Virus record (IMG/VR): IMGVR_UViG_3300046820_000634 | Coordinates: 1-38,420 of that record | Length of the DNA stretch: 38,420 bases | Source: a virus | Strand: one strand, 5' to 3' | Shown here: positions 23,863 to 38,420 of the stretch, piece by piece | How positions within the stretch are numbered: position 1 is the stretch's first letter | Layout: each line of letters starts with the position of its first letter | The notes under the pieces: model-generated | The model's input: the letters and a program-made list of their open reading frames with translations, nothing else | What the model was told of the DNA's origin: nothing | Database searches by the model: none | Position numbers and translations under genes: made by a program

Positions 23863-25479
23863 ATGGCATATACAATTACAAAAACTGACGGAAGTACACT
23901 TGCAACCATTCAAGACGGTACAACCAATACTACTTCCACCAGTTTAACTCTTGTTGGTAAAAACTTTCCGGGCTACGGTGTTTTCCTAAATCAAAACTTT
24001 GTTAAGTTATTGGAGAATTTCAGCAAAACCACAAGCCCAGAAAATCCAATTCAAGGGCAACTATGGTGGGACGTAAGCAACAAATTATTAAAAGTTTACC
24101 AAGGTAGTATTTGGAAAGTTATTTCCAGCGCCATGGCTAGTGCTGGTAGTCCAAGTCAACCTGTTGTGGGCGACTTATGGTGGGACACAGTTAACAGCCA
24201 GTTAAAAGTATATTCGGGAACAACTTGGGTTACCATTGGCCCGGCGTTTACGGCTACAGCCGGTCAGTCTGGTGCGGTAGCTGACGTTATTGCGGACAGT
24301 AGTGCTAGCCCTCACGTTGTAGTTAAGATTTATGTAAGTAATGCGTTGGTTGCTATTGTTAGTAAAGATGCCGCGTTTGCCCCACTAGTAGCTAATACAG
24401 CTCCTGGTTTCACTACAGTTAAGCCTGGCTTTAACCTAAGTAGCGATATTTCGGGCCTAAAGTACTGGGGTGCGTCTGACAATGCAGAAAACTTAGGCGG
24501 TATTTCGGCAGCAACTTACGCCAGACTAAATGGCACAAATCCATTTACTACAGCACAAACAATTTCAAACAACAGTGGTTTAACAATTGGTGCCAGCAAC
24601 GATTTGCAGTTAACTTCTACAACTGGTAGTACAAACATTACCAGCTCGGTTAACGGTAACGACATGAACTTCTGGGTTAAAGTTAATAACGTAAACACTA
24701 AAGTTCTAACACTATCTGGCTCAAACGGTAATATTATTCTTAGTGCTGACCCAACAACTGGTTTGGGCGTTGCGACAAAACAATATGTTGACGCCGCAAA
24801 CACATTTAGTGTAAACTATACTGTCAGTTCAAACAGCAGTATGAAAACATACGTTGATACAATTGATACAGCATCAAACAGCAGTATGAAGACATACGTC
24901 GACAATCAGTTAGTTGCAACAACAACATCTGGTGCCGCACTACGTCGTGACGGAAATAACGCTGTTATTGGTAATATTGCACCATTGGTTAGCAACGTTT
25001 ACACATTCGGTAATACTACCAACAGATTTAGTGCAGTTTGGAGCCGTGACTTTTTTGGTAACGTAACTGGTACATCAAGTCAAGCATTATACGCTGACTT
25101 GGCAGAACGTTTTGAAATTGACAGTCCGTGCCCGCCCGGAACAGTGGTTGAGCTAGGCGGATTAAAAGAAATCACCAAAGTAGCTGAAGAATTAAGCGAA
25201 AATGTGTTTGGCGTCATAAGTACTAATGCAGCCTACTTAATGAATGCAGGTGCTGGCTCAAATCAAACACATCCACCGGTTGCAGTTAGCGGTCGTGTCC
25301 CAGTTAATGTAATTGGTACAGTTAAAAAAGGTGATCGCTTGGTAAGTGCCGGCAACGGATTAGCTAGAGCCGCATCTCGCGATGAAATTTCATCGTGGAA
25401 TGTGATAGGTAGAGCGTTAACAAATAAAACAAGCAGTGGCGTAGGTGTAATTGAAGCCATTGTTAAATTGAATTCATAA
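23863..25479 (+). CDS. Tail fibre 3 with a YADLAE-type C-terminal domain
   Basis: A 538-residue fibre. Its N-terminal ~225 residues match tail fibres 1 and 2 (GQLWWDVSNKLLKVYQGSIW, GDLWWDTVNSQLKVYSGTTWVTIGP, APGFTTVKPGFNLSSD). A TTGLGVATKQYVD motif (about 302) leads into a short repeated SNSSMKTYVD helix. The C-terminal ~130 residues (about 409-538) form a conserved beta domain: LYADLAERFEIDSPCPPGTVVELGG, VFGVISTNAAYLMNAG, PVAVSGRVPVNVIGTVKKGD and ending VGVIEAIVKLNS. I recall this arrangement from fibres of other T4-like phages, where it stands in the place of S74-type chaperones. Cleavage activity cannot be judged here. Confidence 0.83.
   Translation: MAYTITKTDGSTLATIQDGTTNTTSTSLTLVGKNFPGYGVFLNQNFVKLLENFSKTTSPENPIQGQLWWDVSNKLLKVYQGSIWKVISSAMASAGSPSQPVVGDLWWDTVNSQLKVYSGTTWVTIGPAFTATAGQSGAVADVIADSSASPHVVVKIYVSNALVAIVSKDAAFAPLVANTAPGFTTVKPGFNLSSDISGLKYWGASDNAENLGGISAATYARLNGTNPFTTAQTISNNSGLTIGASNDLQLTSTTGSTNITSSVNGNDMNFWVKVNNVNTKVLTLSGSNGNIILSADPTTGLGVATKQYVDAANTFSVNYTVSSNSSMKTYVDTIDTASNSSMKTYVDNQLVATTTSGAALRRDGNNAVIGNIAPLVSNVYTFGNTTNRFSAVWSRDFFGNVTGTSSQALYADLAERFEIDSPCPPGTVVELGGLKEITKVAEELSENVFGVISTNAAYLMNAGAGSNQTHPPVAVSGRVPVNVIGTVKKGDRLVSAGNGLARAASRDEISSWNVIGRALTNKTSSGVGVIEAIVKLNS
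24829..24902 (+). repeat. Tandem near-identical repeat (45-base period) in tail fibre 3
   Basis: Two copies of a 29-base unit (24829-24857 and 24874-24902) differ only at two synonymous positions. They encode SNSSMKTYVD twice. The repeat lies in the helical stalk just after the VATKQYVD motif. Confidence 0.8.
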
Positions 25480-25491
25480 TAGGAAAAGAGT

Positions 25492-26532
25492 ATGTCATAT
25501 TCATCAGGTGGCTTAATTGAAGCGGTAGACTACAATACGTTTGCCCAAGGCGGAGCAAGCGTCGACCACGGTACTGCTAACATTAATACTATTTGGGGCA
25601 ACGGCACAGGTGACAAAGGATACGGCCAAAGTACAACATTAAGTACAGTGTCTGGGTCAAGCACACAATCCGTTACAGCCACTCAGTGGGCAACTTTGTT
25701 AACTCGATTGAACAGTATTTTAACTCATCAGCGAGGCACCGGGTCAGGTGTTACATTGCCGACAACAGGCGCAACTATTTCCTACTTGTCAACACTAAGT
25801 TCTAATATCAGTACAGCATTCAGCAATCGTTTAACATTCAATAGCAGTGGCAGTGATTACAACGGAACCGGTTGGACTAGTAACTGGAACGTTAACAGTC
25901 TAAACGCACAGCCAACTACTTTTCAAATTGTACGCACAGCAACTTTTGCTAGTGCAGACCAGGCTCGTTATTTCTTTAATTCGGGCGGTCAGTTAGTTCT
26001 TACAATGAGCGGTTCAAACCTACGTGGTGGCTCAAAGGGCGATGACTGGGTCGGATTAATTGGATCCAAATTGGCTAGCCATAGATTTGGTCCTAACTTT
26101 AATGCTCGTGGCGGTAGCGGTGGAACAGTAACCGCCAGTAACACTAGTCTTGGTTACTGGGGATTAACAACTACTAACCAAACAATGTTAACATTAACTA
26201 GTGCATCCGGAACAGCAGACTACGGCGGCAACCTTATAACGCTTAGTGTTAGAGCAGGTCACGTGTCAATTCCTCAAGGATTGTATGGTGATAAAGGATT
26301 CGTGGTTGTATTTACAATAGACTTCAACGATACAGCCGCAGATACTAATACAGCAGTTACCTGGACCACAGGTGGTTACAACGGTAACGGTAACGGTGCG
26401 GTTAGTGCAGTGAGTCCAGTACAAGGCGATTTTAACGATACATTGAACCTAAACATCACAACCAATATCACAGTACGTCCACCAGAAGAAACTAACCTAA
26501 GCAACAGCTGGGGCACAGTTTCCATCAGTTAA
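25492..26532 (+). CDS. Virion structural protein at the end of the tail module (346 aa)
   Basis: A 346-residue Ser/Thr/Gly/Asn-rich protein. The N-terminus (YSSGGLIEAVDYNTFAQG...NTIWGNGTGDKGYGQ) matches a structural protein type found beside tail genes of marine T4-like phages (from memory). Residues ~60-130 are helical with TATQWATLLTRLNSILTHQRG. The rest alternates beta-strands, including ADQARYFFNSGGQLVLTMSG, a segment seen in several phage tail proteins. There is no catalytic motif or signal peptide. It has a good ribosome site (AGGA, 25481-25484) and is followed at once by the intrinsic terminator, marking the end of the late transcript. Baseplate or fibre component is inferred. Confidence 0.72.
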   Translation: MSYSSGGLIEAVDYNTFAQGGASVDHGTANINTIWGNGTGDKGYGQSTTLSTVSGSSTQSVTATQWATLLTRLNSILTHQRGTGSGVTLPTTGATISYLSTLSSNISTAFSNRLTFNSSGSDYNGTGWTSNWNVNSLNAQPTTFQIVRTATFASADQARYFFNSGGQLVLTMSGSNLRGGSKGDDWVGLIGSKLASHRFGPNFNARGGSGGTVTASNTSLGYWGLTTTNQTMLTLTSASGTADYGGNLITLSVRAGHVSIPQGLYGDKGFVVVFTIDFNDTAADTNTAVTWTTGGYNGNGNGAVSAVSPVQGDFNDTLNLNITTNITVRPPEETNLSNSWGTVSIS

Positions 26533-26603: not shown

Positions 26604-26921
26604 ATGAGTGAACTAAATCAATTAGTAGACCAAATTCGTTTGGCCACAGATTACCAAACCAACAAACAGATACTGCGTGAAAAGATTCAAACGGAACTTC
26701 ACATGCCTTATAACGGTGGCTTGTTTAAAATAACACCGGAGTTGCTGGCATTTGTGGCTACCTGGCCTGTGGAATGGATGTTCTTAGAAGATGTTTATCA
26801 AAACCCAATTAGCATTGACAACACAAAAGTATTTCTAGTAAAAGCACAACAACACTATTCGGCTGTTATGAATGACTGGAATGAACAGCATGCAGAACTA
26901 CGTAAAATCCGCAAAGCCTAG
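26604..26921 (+). CDS. Unknown small protein, first gene of the accessory operon
   Basis: A 105-residue protein I cannot assign. It is mostly helical: residues 1-32 are a charged helix (MSELNQLVDQIRLATDYQTN), followed by an HMPYNGGLFKITPELLAFVATWP segment with exposed aromatics and a long C-terminal helix (FLVKAQQHYSAVMNDWNEQHAEL) ending in a basic tail. No signal peptide, membrane segment or cysteine is present. It is the first gene after the terminator, and its end overlaps the next gene by about 32 to 50 bases depending on which start that gene uses. A structural or regulatory helper for the following enzymes is possible but unsupported. Confidence 0.75.
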   Translation: MSELNQLVDQIRLATDYQTNKQILREKIQTELHMPYNGGLFKITPELLAFVATWPVEWMFLEDVYQNPISIDNTKVFLVKAQQHYSAVMNDWNEQHAELRKIRKA

Positions 26922-27672
26922 TCGCGGTGTGGTGATGTTTGCCACAAATACCAAAGAAACTGACTACATCAGCATAGCTGAACAAAATGCCAGACTGGTA
27001 GAAAAATTTCTTGGACTACCGACTACTATTGTTACTACACAACAAAATTCAGTTAACCGTAGACTAAGTTCAGACACCGGCACATTTGTTGAGTGGAAAA
27101 ATTTGGGCCGGCACGAGGCCTATGCGGCCAGCCCCTATGACGAAACTATTTTATTAGACTCGGACTATTTGATATTTGACAACAGTCTGTTAAAGTTATT
27201 TAAAACTGAATTTGACTATTTGTTGTTTAATAAAAATCAATATGTAAACAAGCCTAATGTACCTTGGGTAATGGGCCCTCACAGTTTGCCATATGTATGG
27301 GCCACAGCGGTACTGTTTCGTAAAAGCACTCGAAGCCAAATGTTTTTTGATCTAGTGGGCAAAATACAACGCAACTACGGATACTACAAGTTATTGTACA
27401 ATATTCAAGAAAGTAATTACCGCAATGATTATGCCTTTGCAATTGCACACTACATTATAAACGGATATAGTTTGTCGTTGGATACTTTTGCACCTTGGCC
27501 AATTACCACCTTTGCTGGCCCGATAGCTGACATCAAATACAATACTCATGTTGTAGTTAAAGATGATACCAAGGCCTATGTTTTGCCCAAGCAAAATTTA
27601 CACATACTAAGCAAAGAGTTTTTAATCAGCAGTAAGTTTAAACAATTAGTGGATCAAGCAGTTAATGAATAA
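26890..27672 (+). CDS. Nucleotide-sugar-transferase-like protein A (GT-A-like fold)
   Basis: About 260 residues. The core starts at RGVVMFATNTKETDYISIAEQNARL and contains RHEAYAASPYDETILLDSDYLIFDN, a PY-(D)-E-T-hydrophobic-D-S-D pattern typical of GT-A-like transferases in which the DxD (Asp90/Asp92 from this start) binds the metal-sugar nucleotide. It aligns with the next gene (G-(F/V)-V-x-F-A-x-N-T near the start; R...PY.ET....SD), so the two are paralogues. The start is uncertain: ATGs at 26872, 26881 and 26890 are in frame; 26890 has GGA 9 bases upstream and best matches the paralogue. Its sugar donor and acceptor are unknown. A role in glycan synthesis is family-level inference. Confidence 0.65.
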   Translation: MQNYVKSAKPSRGVVMFATNTKETDYISIAEQNARLVEKFLGLPTTIVTTQQNSVNRRLSSDTGTFVEWKNLGRHEAYAASPYDETILLDSDYLIFDNSLLKLFKTEFDYLLFNKNQYVNKPNVPWVMGPHSLPYVWATAVLFRKSTRSQMFFDLVGKIQRNYGYYKLLYNIQESNYRNDYAFAIAHYIINGYSLSLDTFAPWPITTFAGPIADIKYNTHVVVKDDTKAYVLPKQNLHILSKEFLISSKFKQLVDQAVNE

Positions 27673-28525
27673 ACAAGGACAAGGATTTGTAACATTTGCG
27701 ATCAACACAGATGATGTTGATTACTTACGACTAGCTTACCTGCAGGCGCTAAATATTAAAACAACACAACCTAACGCAAGCGTTTCGGTTATTGTTGATC
27801 CAGCAACACGGGAGAAAGTAAATGCTAGGCATACTGATGTGTTCAGCCATATTATTACTTGCGATAGCGGCGGTGTTAGTGATCGCGAAACTAACTTCAG
27901 ACGAGAATCACAAGTATTCCGACTTACCCCTTATAAAGAAACGATAAAGGTAGAGTCGGACTTATTATTCACTCGTGACACCAGTCATTGGTGGACTGCA
28001 CTACGTTTAAAAAATCTAGCTTTAAGCACAGGTTGTAAAAATTATTGGCAATTACCTAGTTCTGTGCGTAAGTATCGCAGAGTCTTCGACGACAATCAAT
28101 TGCCAGATGTATACAACGGACTGATGTATTTTAGATACAGTCAAGAAGCCAGTCGATTCTTTAGCCTAGCAGAACATATATTTGAAAATTGGGACACAGT
28201 TCAAACAACGTTAAAAAATTGTAGAGATACAGTAATCAGTACAGATTTAGTATATGCGATAACAGCACACATACTAGGTCGCGAAGAATATACAATTCCC
28301 AGTTTAGATTTCTTTAACTTTGTGCATATGAAATCCGGCATACAAGGGTGGTCTGATGAAAACCCCTGGACCAATTATGCAGTTAGCGAAGTTGACAACA
28401 ACATGATCCGCATAAACAATTTAAATCAATACAGTCCTGTGCATTACTACCATAAAGAGTTTGCCACAGATGAGTTAATCGAATACTATGAGCAAAGAAT
28501 TAGAACAAGCAATACGCGAGTTTAA
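27665..28525 (+). CDS. Nucleotide-sugar-transferase-like protein B, paralogue of the upstream gene
   Basis: A 286-residue protein beginning QGFVTFAINTDDVDYLRLAYLQALNI, parallel to the upstream protein, with the same FRRESQVFRLTPYKETIKVESDLLF block. The metal-binding DxD is altered to Glu97-Ser-Asp99, which may change metal use or indicate a non-catalytic partner. The middle (DTSHWWTALRLKNLALSTGC) and C-terminal part (GRVP-free, SLDFFNFVHMKSGIQGW...NQYSPVHYYHKEF) are again shared in style with phage-encoded transferase-like proteins. It overlaps the upstream gene by 8 bases and the downstream one by 38, implying translational coupling. A heteromeric pair with its paralogue is possible. Confidence 0.65.
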   Translation: MNKQGQGFVTFAINTDDVDYLRLAYLQALNIKTTQPNASVSVIVDPATREKVNARHTDVFSHIITCDSGGVSDRETNFRRESQVFRLTPYKETIKVESDLLFTRDTSHWWTALRLKNLALSTGCKNYWQLPSSVRKYRRVFDDNQLPDVYNGLMYFRYSQEASRFFSLAEHIFENWDTVQTTLKNCRDTVISTDLVYAITAHILGREEYTIPSLDFFNFVHMKSGIQGWSDENPWTNYAVSEVDNNMIRINNLNQYSPVHYYHKEFATDELIEYYEQRIRTSNTRV

Positions 28526-28832
28526 GGCGCCGCTACCAGTGGTATTAGAATACCGTTTGTATTACGATACAAATGGAAAACCCGTATCTATGAGCAGCCA
28601 CAACCACCCAACCGGAGATTATATTGTTATTCCAAAAGATATATATGATCGTGCCAACTACAACTACCGGGTGGTAAATGGTAAGTTGGAATCACTTGAC
28701 CAATCCACTACATTTCGTGTACAATTACGTAAGAGTACATCTGGTATGCCGGTAGTAGCAGGGCATGCCAGTTTGCCCATTGAGCCCAACGAAGAATATA
28801 CCAACATAGAGTACTATGACAGAAATAATTGA
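28488..28832 (+). CDS. Unknown 114-aa protein in the transferase block
   Basis: A compact, probably beta-rich protein: VVLEYRLYYDTNGKPVSMSSHNHPTGDYIVIPKDIYDRANYNYRVVNGKLESLD and a C-terminal strand set VQLRKSTSGMPVVAGHASLPIEP. A similar EYRLYYDE-G-P...YIV sequence is, from memory, frequent next to phage glycosyltransferase genes, but I know no assigned function. No cysteine, signal peptide or membrane segment. The 38-base overlap with the gene before and 17-base overlap with the glycosyltransferase after it place it firmly in the operon. A carrier or binding accessory protein is a guess. Confidence 0.7.
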   Translation: MSKELEQAIREFKAPLPVVLEYRLYYDTNGKPVSMSSHNHPTGDYIVIPKDIYDRANYNYRVVNGKLESLDQSTTFRVQLRKSTSGMPVVAGHASLPIEPNEEYTNIEYYDRNN

Positions 28833-29715
28833 CATAGCAGATTTAGACTGCATCTTTTTAACCTACGACGAACCTAAGAAAGAAGAGTTTTGGATTCATA
28901 TTCAAAACATGGTTCCGTGGGCTAAACGTGTAGACGGAGTAAAAGGATCAGATGCGGCACATAAAGCCGCTGCCGATGCCAGCGACACTGATCGCTTTGT
29001 TCTTATTGATGGGGATAATATACCCGATCCTGAATTTTTCAACATACAACTTGAACTAGACGACACAAATCGTAATTGCGTGTTTCGTTGGAAGGCACGT
29101 AATGTTGTCAATGGTCTTATGTATGGTAATGGAGGCTTGAGCTGTTGGACCAAAGAGTTTGTCAATACCATGCGTACACATGAAGCCACAGATGGCACAG
29201 CAGAGAATGATGTAGAATTTTGTTTTTATCCCAATTACTGGTCAATGAACGACTGCTACTCAACTACATATCCTAATGCCACAGCTTTTCAAGCATGGCG
29301 TGCCGGATTCCGTGAAGGTGTCAAGATGTGTTTGGACCGCGGTAGTCGTCCGTCACTTACTGACTTCGAACAACGTGTGCATAATCGCAACTATGATCAT
29401 TTGTGCATTTGGCAAAGCGTAGGATCGGATGTTGACAATGGATTCTGGGCTATGTATGGTGCTAGACTCGGAACATACTTAACCATGTTAGAAAATTGGG
29501 ATTATAAGCAAGTGCAAAATTTTGATAGTCTTGCAGATCTTTGGCAACAATACAACAGCGATGATTTGTCGTTGGACCATTGCAAATCTATAGGCGAAAT
29601 ACTAAAAACAAGATTGGATTTACCTATTGTAGATATGGATCCTGAACAAAGCAAATTCTTTAAGCATCACTACAAAAGTCAATTTAAGAATAAAGGAGCA
29701 ATGGTAAGAGAATGA
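28816..29715 (+). CDS. GT-A-like glycosyltransferase
   Basis: A 299-residue protein. The N-terminal half has a Rossmann-like start (LDCIFLTYDEPKKEEFW), the PWAKRVDGVKGSDAAHKAAADAS segment and FVLIDGDNIPDPEFF, in which Asp65-Gly-Asp67-Asn68 is the DxD-type metal and sugar-nucleotide site of GT2-like enzymes. Residues ~100-135 (VVNGLMYGNGGLSCWTKEF, ending near the ENDVEF segment) fit the acceptor side, with the acidic ENDVEF as candidate base. Such proteins transfer a sugar from a nucleotide donor; acceptor unknown. No membrane segment, so it would work in the cytoplasm. The final stop overlaps the amidinotransferase start by ATGA. Confidence 0.72.
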   Translation: MTEIIDIADLDCIFLTYDEPKKEEFWIHIQNMVPWAKRVDGVKGSDAAHKAAADASDTDRFVLIDGDNIPDPEFFNIQLELDDTNRNCVFRWKARNVVNGLMYGNGGLSCWTKEFVNTMRTHEATDGTAENDVEFCFYPNYWSMNDCYSTTYPNATAFQAWRAGFREGVKMCLDRGSRPSLTDFEQRVHNRNYDHLCIWQSVGSDVDNGFWAMYGARLGTYLTMLENWDYKQVQNFDSLADLWQQYNSDDLSLDHCKSIGEILKTRLDLPIVDMDPEQSKFFKHHYKSQFKNKGAMVRE

Positions 29716-30752
29716 GTATAGTTAATAGTCATTGCGGATTTCAACCACTAGAAGAAGTTTGGCTGGGCGATGTTTACCCTGCTAGCTACTACGATCACAT
29801 GCCCTCGGCAGTTAAAGATGCATTTCATACAATCACAGAATGGACTAAAGATGATCTTAGCAAGATTGAAAAGAAATTACAAGAGCTTGGAGTTAACGTT
29901 GTACGTCCTGTGTATAACAGCATTGACGACTGCATCGACAGTAATGGTAATCTCCTCAAACCTGTTGTGGCCTCTCGCGATGATACCCTTGCGTTAGGCA
30001 ATACCTTATATCACTTACGAAATAAGTTTCGGGTAGATCCTTGGCGTAATGCACTGGATCGTTACAAGGCTAGCGGTAGCACAGTGCATGAGATCAGCGA
30101 CGGCCCCTGGTCAACCATTAGTCCGCCTTGTATGGTGCGTATGGGCCAGGACATTTACTTTGACTATATCTACCATGAGCATGTGTTTGGTATCGCTTGT
30201 GAACCACTGGTAGAACTAGCTAAGGACTATCGCTTACACATCAGTATGATTGATGGTCATAGTGATTGTGTATTCTGCCCTGTGCAGGAAGGCTTGATAC
30301 TTACAACACACTACAAGAACAGCTATAACAAAACATTTCCGGGTTGGGAAATTTACAGCCTAACAGATCCTAGCCACAAGAAGCCACTTAACATGGGCAC
30401 AGGATTTCATCAATGGCATATTCCTGATACCAAGATTGGTGCCAACAAAGAGTTTGCCACACATATTCAAACCAAAGCACAAGATTGGGTTGGTAGTTTT
30501 AAAGAAACAGTATTTGATGTTAATTTACTAATTGTTGACGAAAAGAATATTCTCAGTGTAGGTGAAGATCAAGAATTGTTTGAGTTTCTAGCCAAGCGTG
30601 GTATTACTGTTCATGCCTTTAACTTCCGTTGCCGTAACTTCTGGGATGGCGGCATGCATTGTTTAACTAACGATATTCGCAGACGTGGTACTCGTCCTGA
30701 CTTCTTCCCTAATCGTGGCGGTCCAAAACTAGACTGGTTACTAGATGATTAA
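29712..30752 (+). CDS. Amidinotransferase-superfamily enzyme (glycine amidinotransferase-like)
   Basis: A 346-residue protein of the guanidino-group-modifying superfamily. The catalytic set is intact: Asp147 in MGQDIYF (equivalent to the GRDIF Asp of arginine:glycine amidinotransferase), His183-Ser-Asp185 in IDGHSDCVF (the His-x-Asp pair), and Cys317 in DGGMHCLTNDIRR (the GGxxHCxT nucleophile loop). These enzymes form a Cys-amidino intermediate from arginine and pass the amidino group to an amine, or hydrolyse it. Transferase versus deiminase activity cannot be decided from sequence; the GGMHCLTNDIRR loop favours transferase. Lying between two glycosyltransferase-like genes, it might amidinate an amino sugar or amino acid used by them, as in streptidine-type pathways (inference). 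Confidence 0.85.
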   Translation: MSIVNSHCGFQPLEEVWLGDVYPASYYDHMPSAVKDAFHTITEWTKDDLSKIEKKLQELGVNVVRPVYNSIDDCIDSNGNLLKPVVASRDDTLALGNTLYHLRNKFRVDPWRNALDRYKASGSTVHEISDGPWSTISPPCMVRMGQDIYFDYIYHEHVFGIACEPLVELAKDYRLHISMIDGHSDCVFCPVQEGLILTTHYKNSYNKTFPGWEIYSLTDPSHKKPLNMGTGFHQWHIPDTKIGANKEFATHIQTKAQDWVGSFKETVFDVNLLIVDEKNILSVGEDQELFEFLAKRGITVHAFNFRCRNFWDGGMHCLTNDIRRRGTRPDFFPNRGGPKLDWLLDD

Positions 30753-31707
30753 ACTAGAAACTTCTGATGGATTGGTATGGAACTATGATGATCGCATTGT
30801 TGATCTAATCATCGAAGCCAGCCAGCAACAGCAAGTTACCATTGATTTAAATGGGGAAGGTCCTTGTTTAGCAAGTTTAAACTTAATTCCCAAATTAGAA
30901 CGTTTGTGTCGGGTGTTTAGCTGGCCCAAGGAAAAGTTTCATATTAGAACTTGTAATGTCCTAGAAGATACCAGTCAATGGCCAATGACCGTTGATGTAA
31001 ATGGTCTAGTAGAAATACGCCAAGGGCAACAGTTAAAGTATATAGCCAACAAAACCATTGAAAAACATTTTGGCATTTTTATTGGTCGCAGTAACAGTTT
31101 TAGATTGTGGCTAACCAGTTTGCTTTACAATGATCACCGAGATCGTAGTACAATTACATTTCACTATGATTATCGTAGTGACTTTCATCGTGACAACTTA
31201 GGCATTGATAGATTGTTACCTGAGCTAGACAATATCGGTCGTCTTGATGAAATAGCCAATTTAGTTAAAGCTAGCCCAATTGGTAATAATACGACCTACC
31301 CTATATTGTGTCCTCAGAACTTCGATGTTATAAAACAATACGACAAAATATTCCTAGACGTAGCTTGCGAAACTTATTTCACAGGACAAACATTTTTCCC
31401 AACAGAAAAAACCTGGAGATCTATTATTAGTTGTACTCCTTTTGTAGTACAAGGACCTATAGGATATTTGAAAAATCTAAAGCGTCTAGGATTTAAAACA
31501 TTTGATCAATATTGGTCAGAAGAGTACGATGCCGCAGGCGGAGCATTAAGATTGTACGAACTTAAAAATGTTATAGACTATATTGGCAGTAAAACTGTAA
31601 ACGAAATCAATGCTATGTACCAAGACATGCAACCCGTATTACAACACAATCAACAGGTATTTAAAGAGTTAACTTTTAAAAAGATTAAAGAAGAATTCAA
31701 TGTCTAA
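30745..31707 (+). CDS. Glycosyltransferase-like protein (GT-B / GT10-like C-terminus)
   Basis: A 320-residue protein with a conserved C-terminal half: IFLDVACETYFTGQTFFPTEKTWRSIISCTPFVVQGPIGYLKNLKRLGFKTFDQYWSEEYD. Glu209 and Glu221 in E-x11-E spacing, the TEK motif and the GF-x-TF loop resemble the nucleotide-sugar side of GT-B enzymes such as fucosyltransferase-like families, and I have seen the same pattern in many phage proteins called hypothetical. The N-terminal ~130 residues (LVWNYDDRIVDLIIEAS, GIFIGRSNSFRLWLTSLLY) are the probable acceptor part. Neighbours are an amidinotransferase and the first radical SAM gene, with 8-base overlaps on both sides. Activity is inferred. Confidence 0.6.
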   Translation: MIKLETSDGLVWNYDDRIVDLIIEASQQQQVTIDLNGEGPCLASLNLIPKLERLCRVFSWPKEKFHIRTCNVLEDTSQWPMTVDVNGLVEIRQGQQLKYIANKTIEKHFGIFIGRSNSFRLWLTSLLYNDHRDRSTITFHYDYRSDFHRDNLGIDRLLPELDNIGRLDEIANLVKASPIGNNTTYPILCPQNFDVIKQYDKIFLDVACETYFTGQTFFPTEKTWRSIISCTPFVVQGPIGYLKNLKRLGFKTFDQYWSEEYDAAGGALRLYELKNVIDYIGSKTVNEINAMYQDMQPVLQHNQQVFKELTFKKIKEEFNV

Positions 31708-33082
31708 AAGCGTATTCATGTCATCTGCAGAAGAAATGAAGGACAAGTTAGGTCCTGCACTCTGTTTGGCCAAATGGCAGCAGGTTAGTTTACACCTGCC
31801 CACAGGATTAACCAACAGTTGTTATCATCCACCGTTGCACTATATTGATCCAGAACCACTAAGTGATAATCCTGGTGCACTACATAACACAGCATACAAG
31901 AAACAACAGCGTGTTATCATGCTTAAAAATGAAAAGCCCGGCGAGTGTAGTTATTGTTGGAACATAGAAAAACACGGACAGTTAAGCGATCGTCATTATC
32001 GCTCAGGTGAGCCGTGGGCCGCAGAACATTTTGATACCATTGTAAACAGCACAGGAGAAGAGGATGTTATCCCTAGTTATGTCGAAGTTAATTTTAATCA
32101 CGCTTGTAATCTTAGTTGTTCTTACTGTAGTCCACAATTTAGTAGCACTTGGCAAGCGGAAGTGGAAAAGTTTGGAGGATACCCAACATCGACTGTTCAT
32201 AACGATCCTGTATACTTTACTGGTCGCAAACAGCCTATTCCTCATAGCCATACTAATCCATATGTTGAAGCTTTTTGGCAATGGTGGCCTGACCTTTACC
32301 CTAAGCTAAAACATTTTCGTATGACTGGTGGCGAGCCACTAATGGATAAGAATACCTATAAGGTGTTTGACTATGTGCTGGCATTGCCCAAGCCCGATTT
32401 ACACTTAAATGTAACCAGTAACTTCAGCGTAGAACAAAGTTTATTTGACAAGTATTTAGGATATGTGCAGGCTTTGTGCAACACACAAATTGAACATTTT
32501 ATGCAGTATGTAAGTGTTGATACAGGCGTAGATTCCCATGCAGAGTATATTCGTGCTGGGTTAAACTATAAACGCATGACCAATAACGTCAATAGATATT
32601 TGCACGAAGCTCCGCATAGAAACAGTTTAACTTTTATTATTACTATGAACAACCTTAGTGTTATTGGACTGCAAAACTTATTGGAATGGATACTGGGCCT
32701 TAGAGAAACACATAGCAAAACATATCAACGAGTTTGGTTTGACACTCCATTGTTACGCACACCTAGTTGGCAGAGTTTACAAATACTTCCACCTGTGTAT
32801 GCAGATAGATTAGAGCATATTGCTGATTGGATGGAACTGCATTTAGAAACGCCCGACAAGCCATTTCAAGGATTTAAGGATTACGAAGTACAAAGACTAC
32901 GTCGTGATATAGCATGGATGCGTGAAGGACAAAACTTAGATCCTTTGTACATTAAACAACAACGTGCTGATTTCTTTAGATTCTTTAACGAATACGATAA
33001 ACGACATCAAAAACAGTTTGAAGTTGTTTTCCCTAGCATGGTCGAATTCTGGAAGGAATGTAGATATCATGCCCAACGATAA
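31700..33082 (+). CDS. Radical SAM protein 1 (class I: Cys-His-Pro N-terminal auxiliary domain)
   Basis: A 460-residue radical SAM enzyme. The SAM-binding cluster is Cys136, Cys140, Cys143 (CNLSCSYC), followed by TGGEP at 209-213 that contacts the SAM amino group. Before the core, residues 22-90 hold Cys22, Cys41 (NSCYHPP), Cys83 and Cys86 (CSYCWNIE), enough for one auxiliary [4Fe-4S] cluster, like a twitch domain placed N-terminally. After the barrel there is a charged tail: DFFRFFNEYDKRHQKQFEVVFP. An equivalent tail is found in the other four complete copies. Known relatives act on peptides or sugars; the substrate here is unknown. Its Cys-pattern and LHNT..KK..R segment match radical SAM protein 3, so they form one subfamily. 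Confidence 0.88.
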   Translation: MSKSVFMSSAEEMKDKLGPALCLAKWQQVSLHLPTGLTNSCYHPPLHYIDPEPLSDNPGALHNTAYKKQQRVIMLKNEKPGECSYCWNIEKHGQLSDRHYRSGEPWAAEHFDTIVNSTGEEDVIPSYVEVNFNHACNLSCSYCSPQFSSTWQAEVEKFGGYPTSTVHNDPVYFTGRKQPIPHSHTNPYVEAFWQWWPDLYPKLKHFRMTGGEPLMDKNTYKVFDYVLALPKPDLHLNVTSNFSVEQSLFDKYLGYVQALCNTQIEHFMQYVSVDTGVDSHAEYIRAGLNYKRMTNNVNRYLHEAPHRNSLTFIITMNNLSVIGLQNLLEWILGLRETHSKTYQRVWFDTPLLRTPSWQSLQILPPVYADRLEHIADWMELHLETPDKPFQGFKDYEVQRLRRDIAWMREGQNLDPLYIKQQRADFFRFFNEYDKRHQKQFEVVFPSMVEFWKECRYHAQR

Positions 33083-34211
33083 ATTCTGTGTTAGACCTTT
33101 TGTGCATAGTCTAGTAGAGACCAACGGCAAGTTTAGACTCTGTTGTCGTGCAGTACCTGAGTCAAACTTTACTGGTCGCACAGAATATAATATCAATCAA
33201 GACACTGTCGAGGATTGGTGGCAAAGTCCGTACATGAACTACTTACGTCTTAACATGCTAGCCGGCAATACACTAACTGAGTGTGAACGCTGTGATAGAC
33301 AAGAGTCTATGGGTGCAACAAGTTTTAGGCGGCATAGCAATAAACAATTTGGAATAGTCACACAAGCAGATGCTGTGCCACGTGATTGGGAATTTCAGAT
33401 CACCAACTTGTGCAATTTAAAATGCATGATGTGTAGTAGTCAAAACAGTAGTCAATTACTCAACGAGAATGTAGTATTGTTTGGTATACCCGATACACAA
33501 CAGCAATATCAGTGGAATGAGCACAGCCATGCTACTATAACTAAATTGTTTGAAACATTGGACAGTGCAGTACTACGTGGTGGAGAACCATTTATGGTCC
33601 CTTGGATTAAAGATTTATTAGCGAACATACCCAAATCTCGTGCCCAAGAAATCACATTGTTGTTTAATACAAACTTAACTAAAGTTACTCCTGAGATCAT
33701 GCAAGTGCTGGCCAAGTTTAAACACATCAAGTTTAGTTGTAGTATAGATGCTGTTGACCAATTAAACCATTACATACGTTTTCCTAGTAATTGGGAAGAT
33801 ATTGAACGTGCATTGGCGTTAGCCAAAACATTGCCAAACGCAAATGTATTTTTGAATACTTGTGTTCAAAATTTGAATGTACTGCATTTAGATAAACTAT
33901 TGGAATGGGCCAATCAACGCAAACTGTTTGTGTTGCTGGACGTATTAACTGAACCAAAAATATTTGAAGCTACTAATTTACCAAATGATTTGGTACTAAC
34001 AGCAATGGCTAGACTCAATGCAGTTAAAAATAAAATAGATTATAATATGGTTTCCGGACTTGACGGATTAATCAAAACATTGTATAATAGTAGATACTCT
34101 AATGATCAATGGATGGAAATGATTTCTGTTGTTAATCTAAGAGACCAACATAGAGGTGTTAGCGTACTAGACGTTAACCCAGAATTTAAAGATTATTGGT
34201 ATGCCACGTAA
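33069..34211 (+). CDS. Radical SAM protein 2 (class II: CxxPF...CC N-terminal auxiliary domain)
   Basis: A 380-residue enzyme. I start it at ATG 33069 (MPNDKFCVRPF), because this aligns exactly with radical SAM protein 5 (MPNANICMLPW) and overlaps the previous stop by only 14 bases, although the frame is open further upstream. Auxiliary cysteines: Cys7, Cys25-Cys26, Cys72, Cys75 (ECERCDRQE). SAM cluster: Cys115, Cys119, Cys122 (CNLKCMMC). RGGEP at 170-174 replaces the usual TGGEP. The barrel continues with FSCSIDAVDQLNHYIRFPSNW, the (S/A)-x-D....YIR pattern shared by the cluster. C-terminal tail: LRDQHRGVSVLDVNPEF. Reaction unknown. Confidence 0.86.
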   Translation: MPNDKFCVRPFVHSLVETNGKFRLCCRAVPESNFTGRTEYNINQDTVEDWWQSPYMNYLRLNMLAGNTLTECERCDRQESMGATSFRRHSNKQFGIVTQADAVPRDWEFQITNLCNLKCMMCSSQNSSQLLNENVVLFGIPDTQQQYQWNEHSHATITKLFETLDSAVLRGGEPFMVPWIKDLLANIPKSRAQEITLLFNTNLTKVTPEIMQVLAKFKHIKFSCSIDAVDQLNHYIRFPSNWEDIERALALAKTLPNANVFLNTCVQNLNVLHLDKLLEWANQRKLFVLLDVLTEPKIFEATNLPNDLVLTAMARLNAVKNKIDYNMVSGLDGLIKTLYNSRYSNDQWMEMISVVNLRDQHRGVSVLDVNPEFKDYWYAT

Positions 34212-35550
34212 AGATAACGAAACAGACTTAGAATATAAACGCAGAGTAATTGATATCAAGTCAGCGAGCTTTTGTGGGGCAAAATGGTACAATGCTACTA
34301 TTTGGCTAGGCTCTGGTATGACCACAAGTTGCCATCACCCTCTACCGCACAAAGTAGACGTAGATGTTGTCACAGCTAATCCCAAGGCATTACATAATAC
34401 ACCTCAAAAGAAAATTGAGCGTGTTATGATGCGAGAAGGTAGTCGTCCATCTGGTTGTGAATACTGCTGGAAAATTGAAGATATTGGTCGCGAAAACATT
34501 AGTGATCGTGTTTATAAAACTGTAATTTATAGTGATGAGGATTTAGATCATGCATTCAATCTTGGTAACAATGAGGATGTTAACCTCCAAACGTTGGAAA
34601 TTGCTTTTGATAGGACTTGCCAGTTTGCTTGTAGTTATTGCAATCCTGCTTTTTCGACTACTTGGGTCAATGACATTAAACGCAACGGACCTTACACTGG
34701 CCTCAACAGTGACGGCCGTGGTCATTTCACTCACGCTCACGATAGTGCTCAGTTGTATCGTTTTGGCGATACGAATCCTTATGTGGATGCCTTCCATGCC
34801 TGGTGGGAGTCAGACCTACACAGAACTCTTAAAGAGCTTAGAATCACGGGAGGAGAACCTCTCATGTCAGGAGAAACCTGGAAGTTGCTTAACTGGTTCA
34901 AACAAAACCAAGGAAGAAGCCAAACTAGATTAGCCATTAACAGTAACTTAGGTACACAGGTCGATATTGATCGTTTGTTAGATGCAGTAGAGGGCGTGAC
35001 AGTTGATTTGTATACCAGTAATGAATCAATGGGTGTACAATCTGAATATATTCGTGATGGTATTGTATTTTCTGATTGGGTTAATAATGTCGAACGTTTA
35101 TTGGTTAGTAAAAAGTTTCGAGGACTTCATGTTATGTGTACAATCAACGCATTATGCTTAGATAGCCTAACACAGTTCCTTACTCAAGTACACAACTGGA
35201 AAACTGTATACGGCAAAGACAGTATTAACTTTTCGCTAAATATTTTAAGGTTCCCGAGTTTTCAATCACCGCTGGTATTGCCAGACGGATTACGAACCAT
35301 TTACAAAAATAGATTACAAGCCTGGCACGAATCGCACAGCACAAGTGAGTTCGTCCACGAGTACGAGTTAAATCAATTACAGCGATTGATTGACTATCTT
35401 GATATTGTCAAGACTCCACATGCTGGTGCCGCAGAACAATCTTTGTTACAAAGAGACTTTAAACAGTTTTACACACAGTACGATCAACGCCGCGGTAAAA
35501 ACTTTACAGAAACATTTCCTGCTATAGCAGACTGGTACACACAATTATGA
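34201..35550 (+). CDS. Radical SAM protein 3 (class I, paralogue of protein 1)
   Basis: A 449-residue enzyme. N-terminal cysteines Cys25, Cys44 (SCHHPL), Cys86 and Cys89 (CEYCWKIEDIG) sit in the same order as in radical SAM protein 1, with the shared ALHNTPQKKIERVMM segment between. SAM cluster Cys140, Cys144, Cys147 (CQFACSYC); TGGEP at 216-220. The tail DFKQFYTQYDQRRGKNFTETFP is the clearest version of the cluster's C-terminal motif. Duplication followed by divergence from protein 1 is evident; the two are separated by a class II gene, suggesting block duplication. The start overlaps the previous stop by 11 bases. Confidence 0.88.
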   Translation: MPRKDNETDLEYKRRVIDIKSASFCGAKWYNATIWLGSGMTTSCHHPLPHKVDVDVVTANPKALHNTPQKKIERVMMREGSRPSGCEYCWKIEDIGRENISDRVYKTVIYSDEDLDHAFNLGNNEDVNLQTLEIAFDRTCQFACSYCNPAFSTTWVNDIKRNGPYTGLNSDGRGHFTHAHDSAQLYRFGDTNPYVDAFHAWWESDLHRTLKELRITGGEPLMSGETWKLLNWFKQNQGRSQTRLAINSNLGTQVDIDRLLDAVEGVTVDLYTSNESMGVQSEYIRDGIVFSDWVNNVERLLVSKKFRGLHVMCTINALCLDSLTQFLTQVHNWKTVYGKDSINFSLNILRFPSFQSPLVLPDGLRTIYKNRLQAWHESHSTSEFVHEYELNQLQRLIDYLDIVKTPHAGAAEQSLLQRDFKQFYTQYDQRRGKNFTETFPAIADWYTQL

Positions 35551-36863
35551 CAGACAAATTAGAAAACTATTACGAAAATTACAATTACGGACAACGCAAG
35601 CCAGTCTATATTAAAGAAAGCGAATTGCGTGAGGATCAAGCAGATCGCTTGATTAAAAGCGACAACTTCTGCATGATTCCTTGGATACACATGCATGCCT
35701 TTCCTGATGGTCGTGCTTATCCCTGTTGCTTGAGCGAGCCAGACTATCCAATTGGCAATCTACGTAATCAGACCATGCGAGAAGTATGGAACGAGGCTCC
35801 TTACAAAAACATGCGTGTGCGTATGTTAGCAGATAAAGATTGTAAAGAGTGCACCAAATGTTACGAACAAGAACGCAGTGGCCTGTTTAGTATGCGTAAC
35901 AGCGCCAACAAAAACTTTGGACATTTGATTGGACTAGTAGATGACACAAAAGAAGACGGAACCTACGAAGATTTTAAGTTACGGTATTATGATATACGTT
36001 TTAGTAATATTTGTAATTTTGCTTGCCGTACATGTGGTAGCATCTTTAGCTCAAGTTGGCACCGTGATGAAGTAGCCGCTGGTTGGGATCCAAAACACCC
36101 GGTGTTTATGTATGCAGGCAAGGACAAACATGACATGTGGGATCAAATGCAAGAACACATTCCGCATCTTGAACAGATTTACTGGGCAGGTGGAGAACCA
36201 CTTATTATGGAAGAGCACTACAAAGTTCTACGTGAACTTGTGGACCGTGAAATGTTTCATGTACGTTTAATTTACAACACAAACTTCAGCGAAATGAAGT
36301 TTAAAGGCCAAGACGTAATGGAACTGTGGAAACTGTTTGATTGCGTTAGTGTCGGTGCTAGTCTTGATGCTAGTTATGCACGTGGCGAGTATATTCGCAA
36401 AGGACAGGACTGGAAGCAAACAGTTGAGAATCGTGAACGTATGCTTAAGATTTGCCCCAACGTAGACTTTTATGTTAGTAGCACAGTAAGCATGACTAAC
36501 GTACTGCATCTGCCAGACTTCCACCGTGAGTGGGTTGACATGGGCCTAGTGCGTCCAATGGACTGGAACATCAATATGCTACAGCATCCATTGAGATATC
36601 GTGTGGACGTGTTACCATTTGGATTAAAACACAAGGCCAAACAAAAACTTGAAGAGCATATCGCTTGGTTGGAACCATTGGATACATTAACCCGTGCCAC
36701 CAATGGCTATAAAGGTATTATTAACTTTATGATGCAGAATGACAGCAGTCATTTGTTGGGCGAATTTTTTGAAGTTAATAACTTAATTGACCGTGTACGT
36801 AGCGAAGACTTCTTTGCAGTATTCCCTGAATTACAAGACTTGGAGCCATATGCCAAACGCTAA
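35547..36863 (+). CDS. Radical SAM protein 4 (class II, with 38-aa N-terminal extension)
   Basis: A 438-residue enzyme. A Tyr/Asn-rich, charged extension (MTDKLENYYENYNYGQRKPV) precedes the auxiliary domain: Cys42 (NFCMIPW), Cys60-Cys61 (GRAYPCCLSEPDYPIGN), Cys102 and Cys105 (CTKCYEQE), plus an extra Cys99. SAM cluster Cys156, Cys160, Cys163 (CNFACRTC); AGGEP at 214-218. The ASLDASYARGEYIRKGQDW segment is the common D....R.EYIR.G..W pattern. It ends with DFFAVFPELQDLEPYAKR. The PCC...IGN...WN pattern is that of the twitch/SPASM-like region of known phage-encoded radical SAM proteins. ATGA overlap with the preceding gene. Confidence 0.87.
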   Translation: MTDKLENYYENYNYGQRKPVYIKESELREDQADRLIKSDNFCMIPWIHMHAFPDGRAYPCCLSEPDYPIGNLRNQTMREVWNEAPYKNMRVRMLADKDCKECTKCYEQERSGLFSMRNSANKNFGHLIGLVDDTKEDGTYEDFKLRYYDIRFSNICNFACRTCGSIFSSSWHRDEVAAGWDPKHPVFMYAGKDKHDMWDQMQEHIPHLEQIYWAGGEPLIMEEHYKVLRELVDREMFHVRLIYNTNFSEMKFKGQDVMELWKLFDCVSVGASLDASYARGEYIRKGQDWKQTVENRERMLKICPNVDFYVSSTVSMTNVLHLPDFHREWVDMGLVRPMDWNINMLQHPLRYRVDVLPFGLKHKAKQKLEEHIAWLEPLDTLTRATNGYKGIINFMMQNDSSHLLGEFFEVNNLIDRVRSEDFFAVFPELQDLEPYAKR

Positions 36864-38049
36864 TATCTGTATGCTTCCTTGGGTTAGTGTAGAAACTAGC
36901 CCAGTGGGTTCGGCTCGTCCTTGCTGTTTGGCACTAGGTCATATTACCAAACCAGATGGTACAGAGTATAACCTAAACACAGACACACTGGAAGAAATAT
37001 ACAACAGTGATTACATGCGTGACATGCGCCAAGAGTTTATTGATGGTAAAAAGCCTGAGGCATGTCAACGTTGTTGGGACGAAGAAGCCGCTGGACGTCA
37101 AAGTAAGCGTATCAACAGTATCAAGAAAATGAAACCCTTGATACCCCTAATTGACTTTACTAGTGCCGAGCCTAGTGGTATGATGTATGTGGACTTAAAG
37201 CTAGGTAACATTTGTAACATTAAATGCCGTACTTGCGGATCCTGGTCCAGCAGTAAATGGGCCACAGAAGATTTACAAAACGTTCCCTACGAACAGCGTA
37301 AGACACATATTGCCAAGGTGTTTATGCAACAAGGTGAATGGCCACGTAAGAGTCCTGTGTTTTGGGATAACATGCGTAAGCAGTTACCTAGTATTCGTTA
37401 CTTTGATTTCACAGGTGGCGAGCCTTTTATGATTCAAGAACACTTTGATTTGTTGCAGTATAGTGCTGAACAAGGTTATTCAAAGCATCAACAGATACAC
37501 TACAACACCAACGGCACACAATGGCCCGAAGATGCAGAGCAACTATGGCGGCAATTTGAATTAGTAGAAATTGCTTTTAGTATTGACAACGTAGGTGATC
37601 GTTTTGAATTGGAACGCTCGGGTGCTAAGTGGGATGAAGTAAATGCCAACATACAAAAGTTCCGTGAAATGCGTGAGCGTAACAGCAACATTACTCTACA
37701 AGTATGCTTGACTATTAATACACAAAATGTCTATTACTTAGAAGAACTGTGTGCATGGATCGCAGAACAAAACTTCAACTATGATTACTTTAACATGCTA
37801 CATGACCCAAGGCATTTTAACATTGGCGAAATGACAGCAGAAGCAAAACAATTGGTTATTGATAAACTACGTGCAGGTAAGTTTATTCCTCGCCATCAAA
37901 TTGAAATTGATCGTATTATCAAGTTTATTGAAAACGGTCCTACCAGCGATGGTAAAAAGTTTGTACGAGAAATGAAACGCCTGGATCAAAGACGAAAAGA
38001 AAACTTTGCCAACACTCATCCGGAAATTGCACAAGCTATGGGATATTAA
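36850..38049 (+). CDS. Radical SAM protein 5 (class II)
   Basis: A 399-residue enzyme. The chosen start (ATG 36850, MPNANICMLPW) gives the same cysteine spacing as radical SAM protein 2: Cys7, Cys25-Cys26, Cys72, Cys75 (CQRCWDEEAAG). A longer frame to 36787 would add residues overlapping the previous gene without homology. SAM cluster Cys122, Cys126, Cys129 (CNIKCRTC); TGGEP at 188-192. The barrel includes FSIDNVGDRFELERSGAKW. The tail REMKRLDQRRKENFANTHPEI keeps the D-x-R-R-x3-F-x4-P motif. The 14-base overlap with the upstream stop has nearly the same sequence as the overlap at 33069. The substrate is unknown. Confidence 0.87.
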   Translation: MPNANICMLPWVSVETSPVGSARPCCLALGHITKPDGTEYNLNTDTLEEIYNSDYMRDMRQEFIDGKKPEACQRCWDEEAAGRQSKRINSIKKMKPLIPLIDFTSAEPSGMMYVDLKLGNICNIKCRTCGSWSSSKWATEDLQNVPYEQRKTHIAKVFMQQGEWPRKSPVFWDNMRKQLPSIRYFDFTGGEPFMIQEHFDLLQYSAEQGYSKHQQIHYNTNGTQWPEDAEQLWRQFELVEIAFSIDNVGDRFELERSGAKWDEVNANIQKFREMRERNSNITLQVCLTINTQNVYYLEELCAWIAEQNFNYDYFNMLHDPRHFNIGEMTAEAKQLVIDKLRAGKFIPRHQIEIDRIIKFIENGPTSDGKKFVREMKRLDQRRKENFANTHPEIAQAMGY

Positions 38050-38261
38050 TGAAAGCCTGGAAAAGTCGAAGATATCTTGATGTGCAAATACGAAAAAGGC
38101 CCTGGAAGGAATGGTACGCCTGGCGCCCTGTTAAAGACATACATGGCAAATGGCATTGGCTCAATATTGTTTATCGCAAACTAGGCAATGATTATGTAGA
38201 CCACGATGACTTTAGTTGGTATTTCTATGGTACACTATTTGACGTATTAGAAAATGAATAA
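38049..38261 (+). CDS. Small Trp-rich basic protein (70 aa) within the radical SAM array
   Basis: A 70-residue protein with six or more Trp and many Tyr/Arg/Lys: MKAWKSRRYLDVQIRKRPWK, then EWYAWRPVKDIHGKWHWL and VYRKLGNDYVDHDDFSWY. The start uses TAATG, one base of overlap with the upstream stop, and the end overlaps the next radical SAM gene by 8 bases, so it is translated with them. Similar W-x-W-x-AW-x-P small proteins occur in many T4-like phages (from memory) with no known role. Its size, location and aromatic content make it a possible partner or substrate of the radical SAM enzymes, but there is no Cys or leader-core arrangement to support a RiPP precursor. Confidence 0.72.
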   Translation: MKAWKSRRYLDVQIRKRPWKEWYAWRPVKDIHGKWHWLNIVYRKLGNDYVDHDDFSWYFYGTLFDVLENE

Positions 38262-38420
38262 ACCCGATACACTTTGTATGGCACCATGGACTCACACTTA
38301 TTTGAGTCCGCAAACTGAACGACGCATGTGTTGTGCGTCACGGGAGTCTGCACAAAACTTTCAACAGTATATTGACACCAGTTCCGGCACTGGCAAGTAT
38401 ATACCTATCACTTTGGACGA
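38254..38420 (+). CDS. Radical SAM protein 6, N-terminal part only (class II, cut by window edge)
   Basis: The frame from ATG 38254 is open to the right edge (55 codons). The product starts MNKPDTLCMAPWTHTYLSPQ and continues TERRMCCASRESAQNF, matching the C-x-x-P-W ... C-C opening of the class II radical SAM proteins: Cys8, Cys26, Cys27, almost the same spacing as proteins 2 and 5. The CxxxCxxC core would lie beyond the edge, so the radical SAM assignment rests on the N-terminal pattern and the neighbours. The start overlaps the 70-aa gene's stop by 8 bases. Confidence 0.75.
   Translation, partial: MNKPDTLCMAPWTHTYLSPQTERRMCCASRESAQNFQQYIDTSSGTGKYIPITLD

Follow-up and report, generated by a model that had tools for sequence, protein, structure and literature searches.

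A radical SAM gene array at the end of a viral contig

The IMG/VR virus record IMGVR_UViG_3300046820_000634 was analysed over its entire length of 38,420 bases (referred to here as the window), and an array of genes encoding radical S-adenosylmethionine (SAM) proteins was found at its right end. Five complete radical SAM open reading frames (ORFs), each encoding a CxxxCxxC and a GGEP motif, lie on the + strand between positions 31700 and 38049, as an earlier sequence-only reading of this DNA had described. All five products exceed the curated whole-protein cut-off (170 bits) of the NCBIfam model NF033640 (N_Twi_rSAM, N-terminal twitch radical SAM; hereafter N_Twi), with scores between 278 and 399 bits. 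The corresponding genes were named A1 (31700..33082, 460 aa, 299.9 bits), B2 (33069..34211, 380 aa, 282.6 bits), C3 (34201..35550, 449 aa, 278.2 bits), D4 (35547..36863, 438 aa, 398.8 bits) and E5 (36850..38049, 399 aa counted from ATG, 349.4 bits). With the Pfam Radical_SAM model, three of the five proteins were over the cut-off and two matched below the threshold (E 1.5e-5 and 4e-4). All five scored far below the curated NCBIfam cut-offs for named radical SAM families such as QueE, MoaA and viperin, and the QueE label carried by some Vibrio phage records was dropped since the window proteins do not reach the QueE cut-offs.

E5 is followed on the + strand by an ORF of 70 aa (38049..38261), which is without a family match and was present only in the window among the compared loci, and then by the first 55 codons of a further gene (38254..38420, +), where the contig stops. 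The visible portion of this gene covers the N-terminal twitch alone, with no CxxxCxxC motif in it, and the gene was assigned by orthology instead of by the NF033640 cut-off. Given its 94.5% identity over 55 aa to a family in related loci, designated R10, it is a real sixth gene. Thus the six genes proposed by the sequence-only reading do exist, though the fifth and the sixth are separated by the 70-aa ORF and are not strictly side by side. From 31700 to the window end all neighbouring genes overlap, by 1–14 bases per pair, and look like one translationally coupled run.

Five enzymes are conserved in order across related viral loci

IMG/VR was scanned with D4 and A1, which yielded 40 and 80 loci, respectively; genes in these relatives (loci are numbered with the prefix L) were called as mechanical ORFs. 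Together with the window, 81 loci were anchored on A1, and 62 of them reach from A1 to a downstream gene family, family 11. In 62 of 62, all five core enzymes (A1, C3, D4, E5 and R10, core members 1 to 5) were present, as five separate genes in 59 loci and with D4 and E5 fused in the remaining 3. Adjacent core genes were found in the expected order in 982 of 983 pairs, and all 1064 core genes lie on one strand within their loci. The 62 loci are not to be counted as independent lineages, because some contigs are near-copies (e.g. L103–L106) and the loci were picked by their similarity to A1. The D4–E5 fusion protein of about 840 aa (family 36; L020:10001-12529, L024:10013-12526 and L047:14634-17159) suggests that D4 and E5 act together, being fused in a few phages.

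Clustering of the genes in these loci gave one cassette, in the order fibre, h346, s105, GTa, GTb, s114, GTc, a variable slot, A1, a slot, C3, D4, E5, a slot, R10 and families 11, 13, 14 and 15. Family 11, a conserved protein of about 360 aa (e.g. L062:16535-17620), stands almost always directly after R10 and has neither a Pfam match nor a PDB sequence match. In relatives the island continues past the array to DegT, epimerase and further genes, and the window contig ends inside the array. Further N_Twi copies occupy the slots, 31 genes after A1 and 7 after E5. B2 is such an optional copy, in the slot after A1, and its family has only 9 members among about 120 loci. Long contigs carry 5–16 copies each by family profile, so the expectation in the sequence-only reading that phages have one or two such genes underestimates this group. 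Marine phage contigs that had been assigned to metagenome-assembled genomes (L128–L130) carry the same five enzymes with few or no slot genes, and in them R10 precedes E5.

In some cassettes (L103–L106, about 9671-9973) a DUF59-type iron-sulfur assembly protein is encoded just before A1. B12-binding-type radical SAM proteins were also seen near or within arrays (L040:11148-13403, and slot families 81 and 154). In a search for a cultured carrier of the same cassette, GTc had no match among 50,697 phage records, and D4 and A1 matched only two cultured phages, K566 and K567.

The core enzymes are old and under purifying selection

The radical SAM proteins of the window share 20–31% identity with each other, C3 being the closest paralogue of A1 (31%), and each groups with its orthologues from other phages, which bears out the earlier description of them as divergent paralogues. 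Across loci, the median identity was 53–73% between orthologues and 22–32% between paralogues. A maximum-likelihood tree was built from 173 sequences, and in it A1, C3, E5, R10 and two further groups, R21 and R29, each fell on one side of a branch with SH-aLRT support of at least 95 (99 for the A1 clade). D4 did not, its members being interleaved with bacterial copies and with a divergent copy from a phage (L040). For each of the five core groups the median dN/dS lay within 0.05–0.11; many of the pairs had a high dS. Given these identities, tree groups and low dN/dS values, the array represents an ancient collection of distinct enzymes maintained by purifying selection. Recent tandem duplication was rejected on the basis of the tree and the identities.

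An N-terminal twitch domain with predicted auxiliary cluster

Seven cysteines, three of the radical SAM cluster and four in the N-terminal domain (seen also in A1 itself), are conserved in 91–100% of the members of each core group, and the CxxxCxxC and GGEP-type motifs in 99–100% of orthologues. The four N-terminal cysteines, arranged as C, C and CxxC, align to the auxiliary-cluster ligands of BtrN, which was the sole significant PDB match of the twitch profile (E 1.2e-4, four cysteines aligned). A four-cysteine auxiliary cluster is predicted in the N-terminal domain from this alignment. In all members examined the twitch domain lies N-terminal to the radical SAM core, not C-terminal as in the BtrN-type twitch. 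In BtrN, which carries out a two-electron oxidation of an aminocyclitol alcohol, four cysteines serve as ligands of the auxiliary cluster (PMC9012708).

The AlphaFold2 model of D4 (pLDDT 94.5) matched anSME, SuiB, BlsE and DesII with Z values of 12–12.6 over 209–234 residues, and D4 is thus modelled as a radical SAM partial barrel; the fold of the other four enzymes was assigned by sequence profile. The first auxiliary cysteine is residue 7 in both E5 and B2, so that these two proteins have no room for an N-terminal leader-binding domain like that of SkfB (compare PMC6231123).

Structural and glycosyltransferase-like genes precede the array

The source phage is a giant, water-dwelling phage. 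The left part of the window carries baseplate and tail-fibre genes of T4-like type, and the top cultured-phage matches of its wedge protein (1,129 aa), at 35–37% identity, are giants, e.g. Atu_ph07, XaC1 and CBB. The baseplate genes are followed by a gene for a structural protein of 3,924 aa, a putative equivalent of VrlC, then by the fibres and the cassette.

All cassette genes upstream of A1 lie on the + strand. At the left edge, a tail-fibre-like protein with a Peptidase_G2 autoproteolytic (intramolecular chaperone-type) domain (23863..25479, 86 loci) precedes h346 (25492..26532, 103 loci), a conserved protein rich in Gly, Ser and Thr. Because family searches gave no match for h346, its description as probably structural follows from its place and composition. 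The small conserved protein s105 (26604..26921, 108 loci) is followed by GTa (26872..27672, 112 loci), a putative glycosyltransferase-like protein assigned by eye without a database match, and by GTb (27665..28525, 113 loci), putatively GT8-like from a weak glycogenin profile match (E 3e-3). Next come s114, another small conserved protein (28488..28832, 106 loci), and GTc (28816..29715, 115 loci), a glycosyltransferase-like protein of the cassette core. The AlphaFold2 model of GTc (pLDDT 88.7) matched GT-A glycosyltransferases with Z up to 9.7, with SunS as the best Foldseek match, and a GT-A fold is predicted for it on this basis.

Two genes fill the variable slot before A1. The first (29712..30752) encodes an amidinotransferase-like protein (phrog_25854), whose PDB sequence match is L-arginine:glycine amidinotransferase (E 2e-9); a gene resembling this family is unusual in a phage and might be concerned with a guanidino group. 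The second (30745..31707) encodes a protein of the “TEKT..” type, with a motif common to slot families 17, 18 and 19; its label as glycosyltransferase-like is inferential, as Pfam gave no match.

Links with sugar-tailoring genes and bacterial relatives

Among slot and downstream genes, carbamoyltransferase, adenosine 5′-phosphosulfate (APS) kinase, DegT aminotransferase, epimerase, GDSL-type and amidinotransferase-like proteins were recognised, many of these sugar-enzyme labels being weak in the slots because Pfam names few slot proteins directly. Family 15 of the phage cassette is a free carbamoyltransferase, and in a Bacteriovoracaceae sequence (L154:1057-3861, − strand) a carbamoyltransferase recognised by Pfam is fused to an N-terminal-twitch radical SAM protein, in 934 aa. 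By-eye assignment further indicated an N_Twi protein fused to a GT2-like half in L152 and another fused to a glycosyltransferase-like half in L040:7630-10008. The cultured Vibrio phage K566, whose phage background differs, shows an alternation of N_Twi and GT8 genes; its N_Twi genes (L006:21543-31010 and 37861-40191) are interleaved with GT8- and GT4-like genes and adjoin NAD-salvage genes. Taken together, the lines of gene context, which are partly independent, point to sugars.

A bacterial counterpart was found on the chromosome of a member of the Bacteriovoracaceae (L136, with obg, rpmA and rplU as flanking genes), where one array holds orthologues of all five core enzymes and three further copies, which group with the phage groups in the tree. 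Neither fibre, h346, s105 nor glycosyltransferase cassette genes were found in the 20 kb upstream of this array or from there on to the contig end; a carbamoyltransferase related to family 15 lies about 11 kb upstream of it. Among 114 Bdellovibrionota genomes, a relative of GTc was present in 8, all of them among the 34 genomes with an N_Twi protein over the cut-off (Fisher p 3e-5), an association that is not fully independent because the genomes are related. In 7 of the 8, the GTc relative and an N_Twi gene lie within about 4 kb. On chromosomes of these predatory-type bacteria, islands (L211–L214) bring relatives of GTc together with N_Twi genes and with radical SAM genes of other families (f38). 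Elsewhere, an Elusimicrobia genome (bin-0981; L137, genome G045) has 64 family matches, several of them in tandem and fused to long tetratricopeptide (TPR) repeats, one Bdellovibrionia genome has 31, and the cultured bacterium Beijerinckia mobilis carries a clear family member.

A proposed stepwise glycan-tailoring pathway and its alternatives

Since the core five recur in order beside sugar-handling genes, they probably form a fixed multi-step pathway and not a random gene pile. The sequence-only reading had offered stepwise or combinatorial chemistry, or selection for variety of substrates; we favour the stepwise possibility in view of the invariant core of the 62 loci, the D4–E5 fusions and the set held in common with a bacterial chromosome. 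Our preferred explanation, to which we give a probability of about one half, is that the array is one module, a stepwise radical pathway that tailors a glycan in the host-recognition region. In such a pathway A1, C3, D4, E5 and R10 would be non-interchangeable and act one after another, with optional extra enzymes, and, together with GTa, GTb, GTc and the products of the slots, would assemble an unusual glycan and modify it. Each enzyme would use SAM bound at the [4Fe-4S] cluster of its CxxxCxxC motif to generate a 5′-deoxyadenosyl radical, which would abstract a hydrogen from a substrate carbon; the N-terminal domain may then take the second electron, leading to a BtrN-like oxidation, from alcohol to ketone, or to similar conversions. 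Neighbouring genes may add or remove carbamoyl, sulfo, amino, amidino or acyl groups, and the glycan may be carried on the virion fibres or change the surface of the host while it is infected. The analysis established which genes are present and in what order, how far the genes and their cysteines are conserved, which of them are orthologues, the predicted fold, the linkage and the fusions; from these we infer that the proteins are active enzymes, that a glycan is their substrate, in which order they act and what biological purpose they serve. The bolder proposal of a complete, obligatory five-step pathway, common to giant phages and predatory-type bacteria and making a new kind of glycan or glycoconjugate for the phage–host surface, is put forward only tentatively.

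Several observations weigh against a glycan substrate. GTa, GTb, the slot “TEKT” proteins and two of the fusions rest on weak or by-eye similarity; the L136 genome (G032), which bears all five enzymes, yielded no GTc relative; sugar enzymes are only a minority of N_Twi neighbours in bacteria; and some Elusimicrobia copies are fused to TPR repeats, not to sugar enzymes. Twitch/SPASM enzymes often act on peptides. The nearest structures of D4 are tied between peptide- or protein-acting enzymes (SuiB, anSME, CteB, SkfB) and sugar-acting ones (BlsE, DesII), so the attempt to read a substrate from them failed, and function is hard to infer from sequence in the subfamily of SkfB (PMC6231123). These enzymes might modify a phage protein directly, such as h346 or the upstream fibre, in the manner of maturases of ribosomally synthesised and post-translationally modified peptides (RiPPs) or sulfatase-maturing enzymes, a reading that we consider rather unlikely. 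The module always follows the fibre-like, h346 and s105 genes, and the best structural match of GTc, SunS, is a peptide S-glycosyltransferase, both of which would suit such a role; the purpose would be to harden or diversify the receptor-binding apparatus, with the glycosyltransferases then acting on the same protein. However, no h346, s105 or fibre gene lies near the L136 array, so these proteins cannot be the general substrate, an N-terminal leader-binding domain has no space before the twitch in E5 and B2, and no precursor-peptide gene was recognised in a non-exhaustive screen of short ORFs.

It is improbable that the copies are a combinatorial, diversifying pool kept for substrate variety. 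The optional N_Twi copies in the two slots, the 5–16 copies on long contigs and the 64 and 31 matches in single bacterial genomes would suit such a pool, and substrate variety, as raised by the sequence-only reading, fits only optional genes such as B2; the core five, however, are one-to-one orthologues of old divergence, in fixed order, with low dN/dS, are not interchangeable and are under strong purifying selection. We give as little credence to a set making a small molecule or cofactor as auxiliary metabolism unrelated to surfaces. In its favour, the full set also exists in a bacterium, on a chromosome where phage genes do not accompany it, and the slots hold additional radical SAM genes, two B12-binding families among them, but the constant link to fibres and glycosyltransferases in phages, and to GTc in bacteria, speaks against it.

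Radical SAM enzymes perform chemistry beyond that of ordinary enzymes and require a large outlay of iron, SAM and electrons. That five constrained members of one family are inherited together in about a hundred phage contigs points to a genuine multi-step pathway, and the glycosyltransferases together with the BtrN-like auxiliary domain provide the first strong functional lead for the NF033640 family. If the glycan-tailoring explanation holds, phages would run a natural-product-like tailoring line on surface glycans, which would bear on host recognition or on the exclusion of rivals. K566 and Beijerinckia mobilis are cultured settings in which the function could be probed.

Comparison with known systems

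Phages with arrays of radical SAM genes were known before, having been reported among pelagimyophages and in Aeromonas phage 332-Vera. Pelagimyophages (2020) have a host recognition cluster with fibres and glycosyltransferases, to which radical SAM cassettes are added in one comparison (PMC7029224). Like the window, they are T4-like and carry tail fibres, glycosyltransferases and radical SAM genes in a region after the baseplate genes, and the window resembles this type in the placement of its island after a large baseplate-region gene. The cassettes are mentioned there briefly, without family, count, order or function, and the freshwater fonsimyophages are without radical SAM genes (PMC7029224). 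For 332-Vera (2025; PQ474292), a cultured giant phage, eight radical SAM genes in a structural cluster were described by the authors as “highly unusual”, with no function given (PMC12390700). Many radical SAM genes among structural genes are common to 332-Vera and the window; 332-Vera differs in belonging to the Chimalliviridae, and the comparison is at the level of the radical SAM superfamily.

KVP40-like Vibrio phages carry a single radical SAM gene that is a distant relative of B2 (22–28% identity). They mostly have one match per genome, among which K566 and K567 stand out, K566 with six family-profile matches. Concerning the question raised by the sequence-only reading of whether such arrays are standard and already characterised in T4-like phages, they are standard within the present group, but KVP40-like phages mostly have a single one of these genes, and a characterised function is lacking throughout. 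A search of open-licence literature found neither the conserved unit of five enzymes and its order nor the counterpart in bacteria, the fusions or the GTc link.

With regard to the enzymes themselves, the twitch of BtrN, from butirosin biosynthesis, matches the N-terminal domain of the window proteins, with the order reversed so that the twitch precedes the core. The NF033640 model describes the same architecture, an N-terminal twitch followed by the radical SAM core, as a subfamily without an assigned function; what is added to it here is the set of five with its fixed order, the counterpart in bacteria and the fusions.

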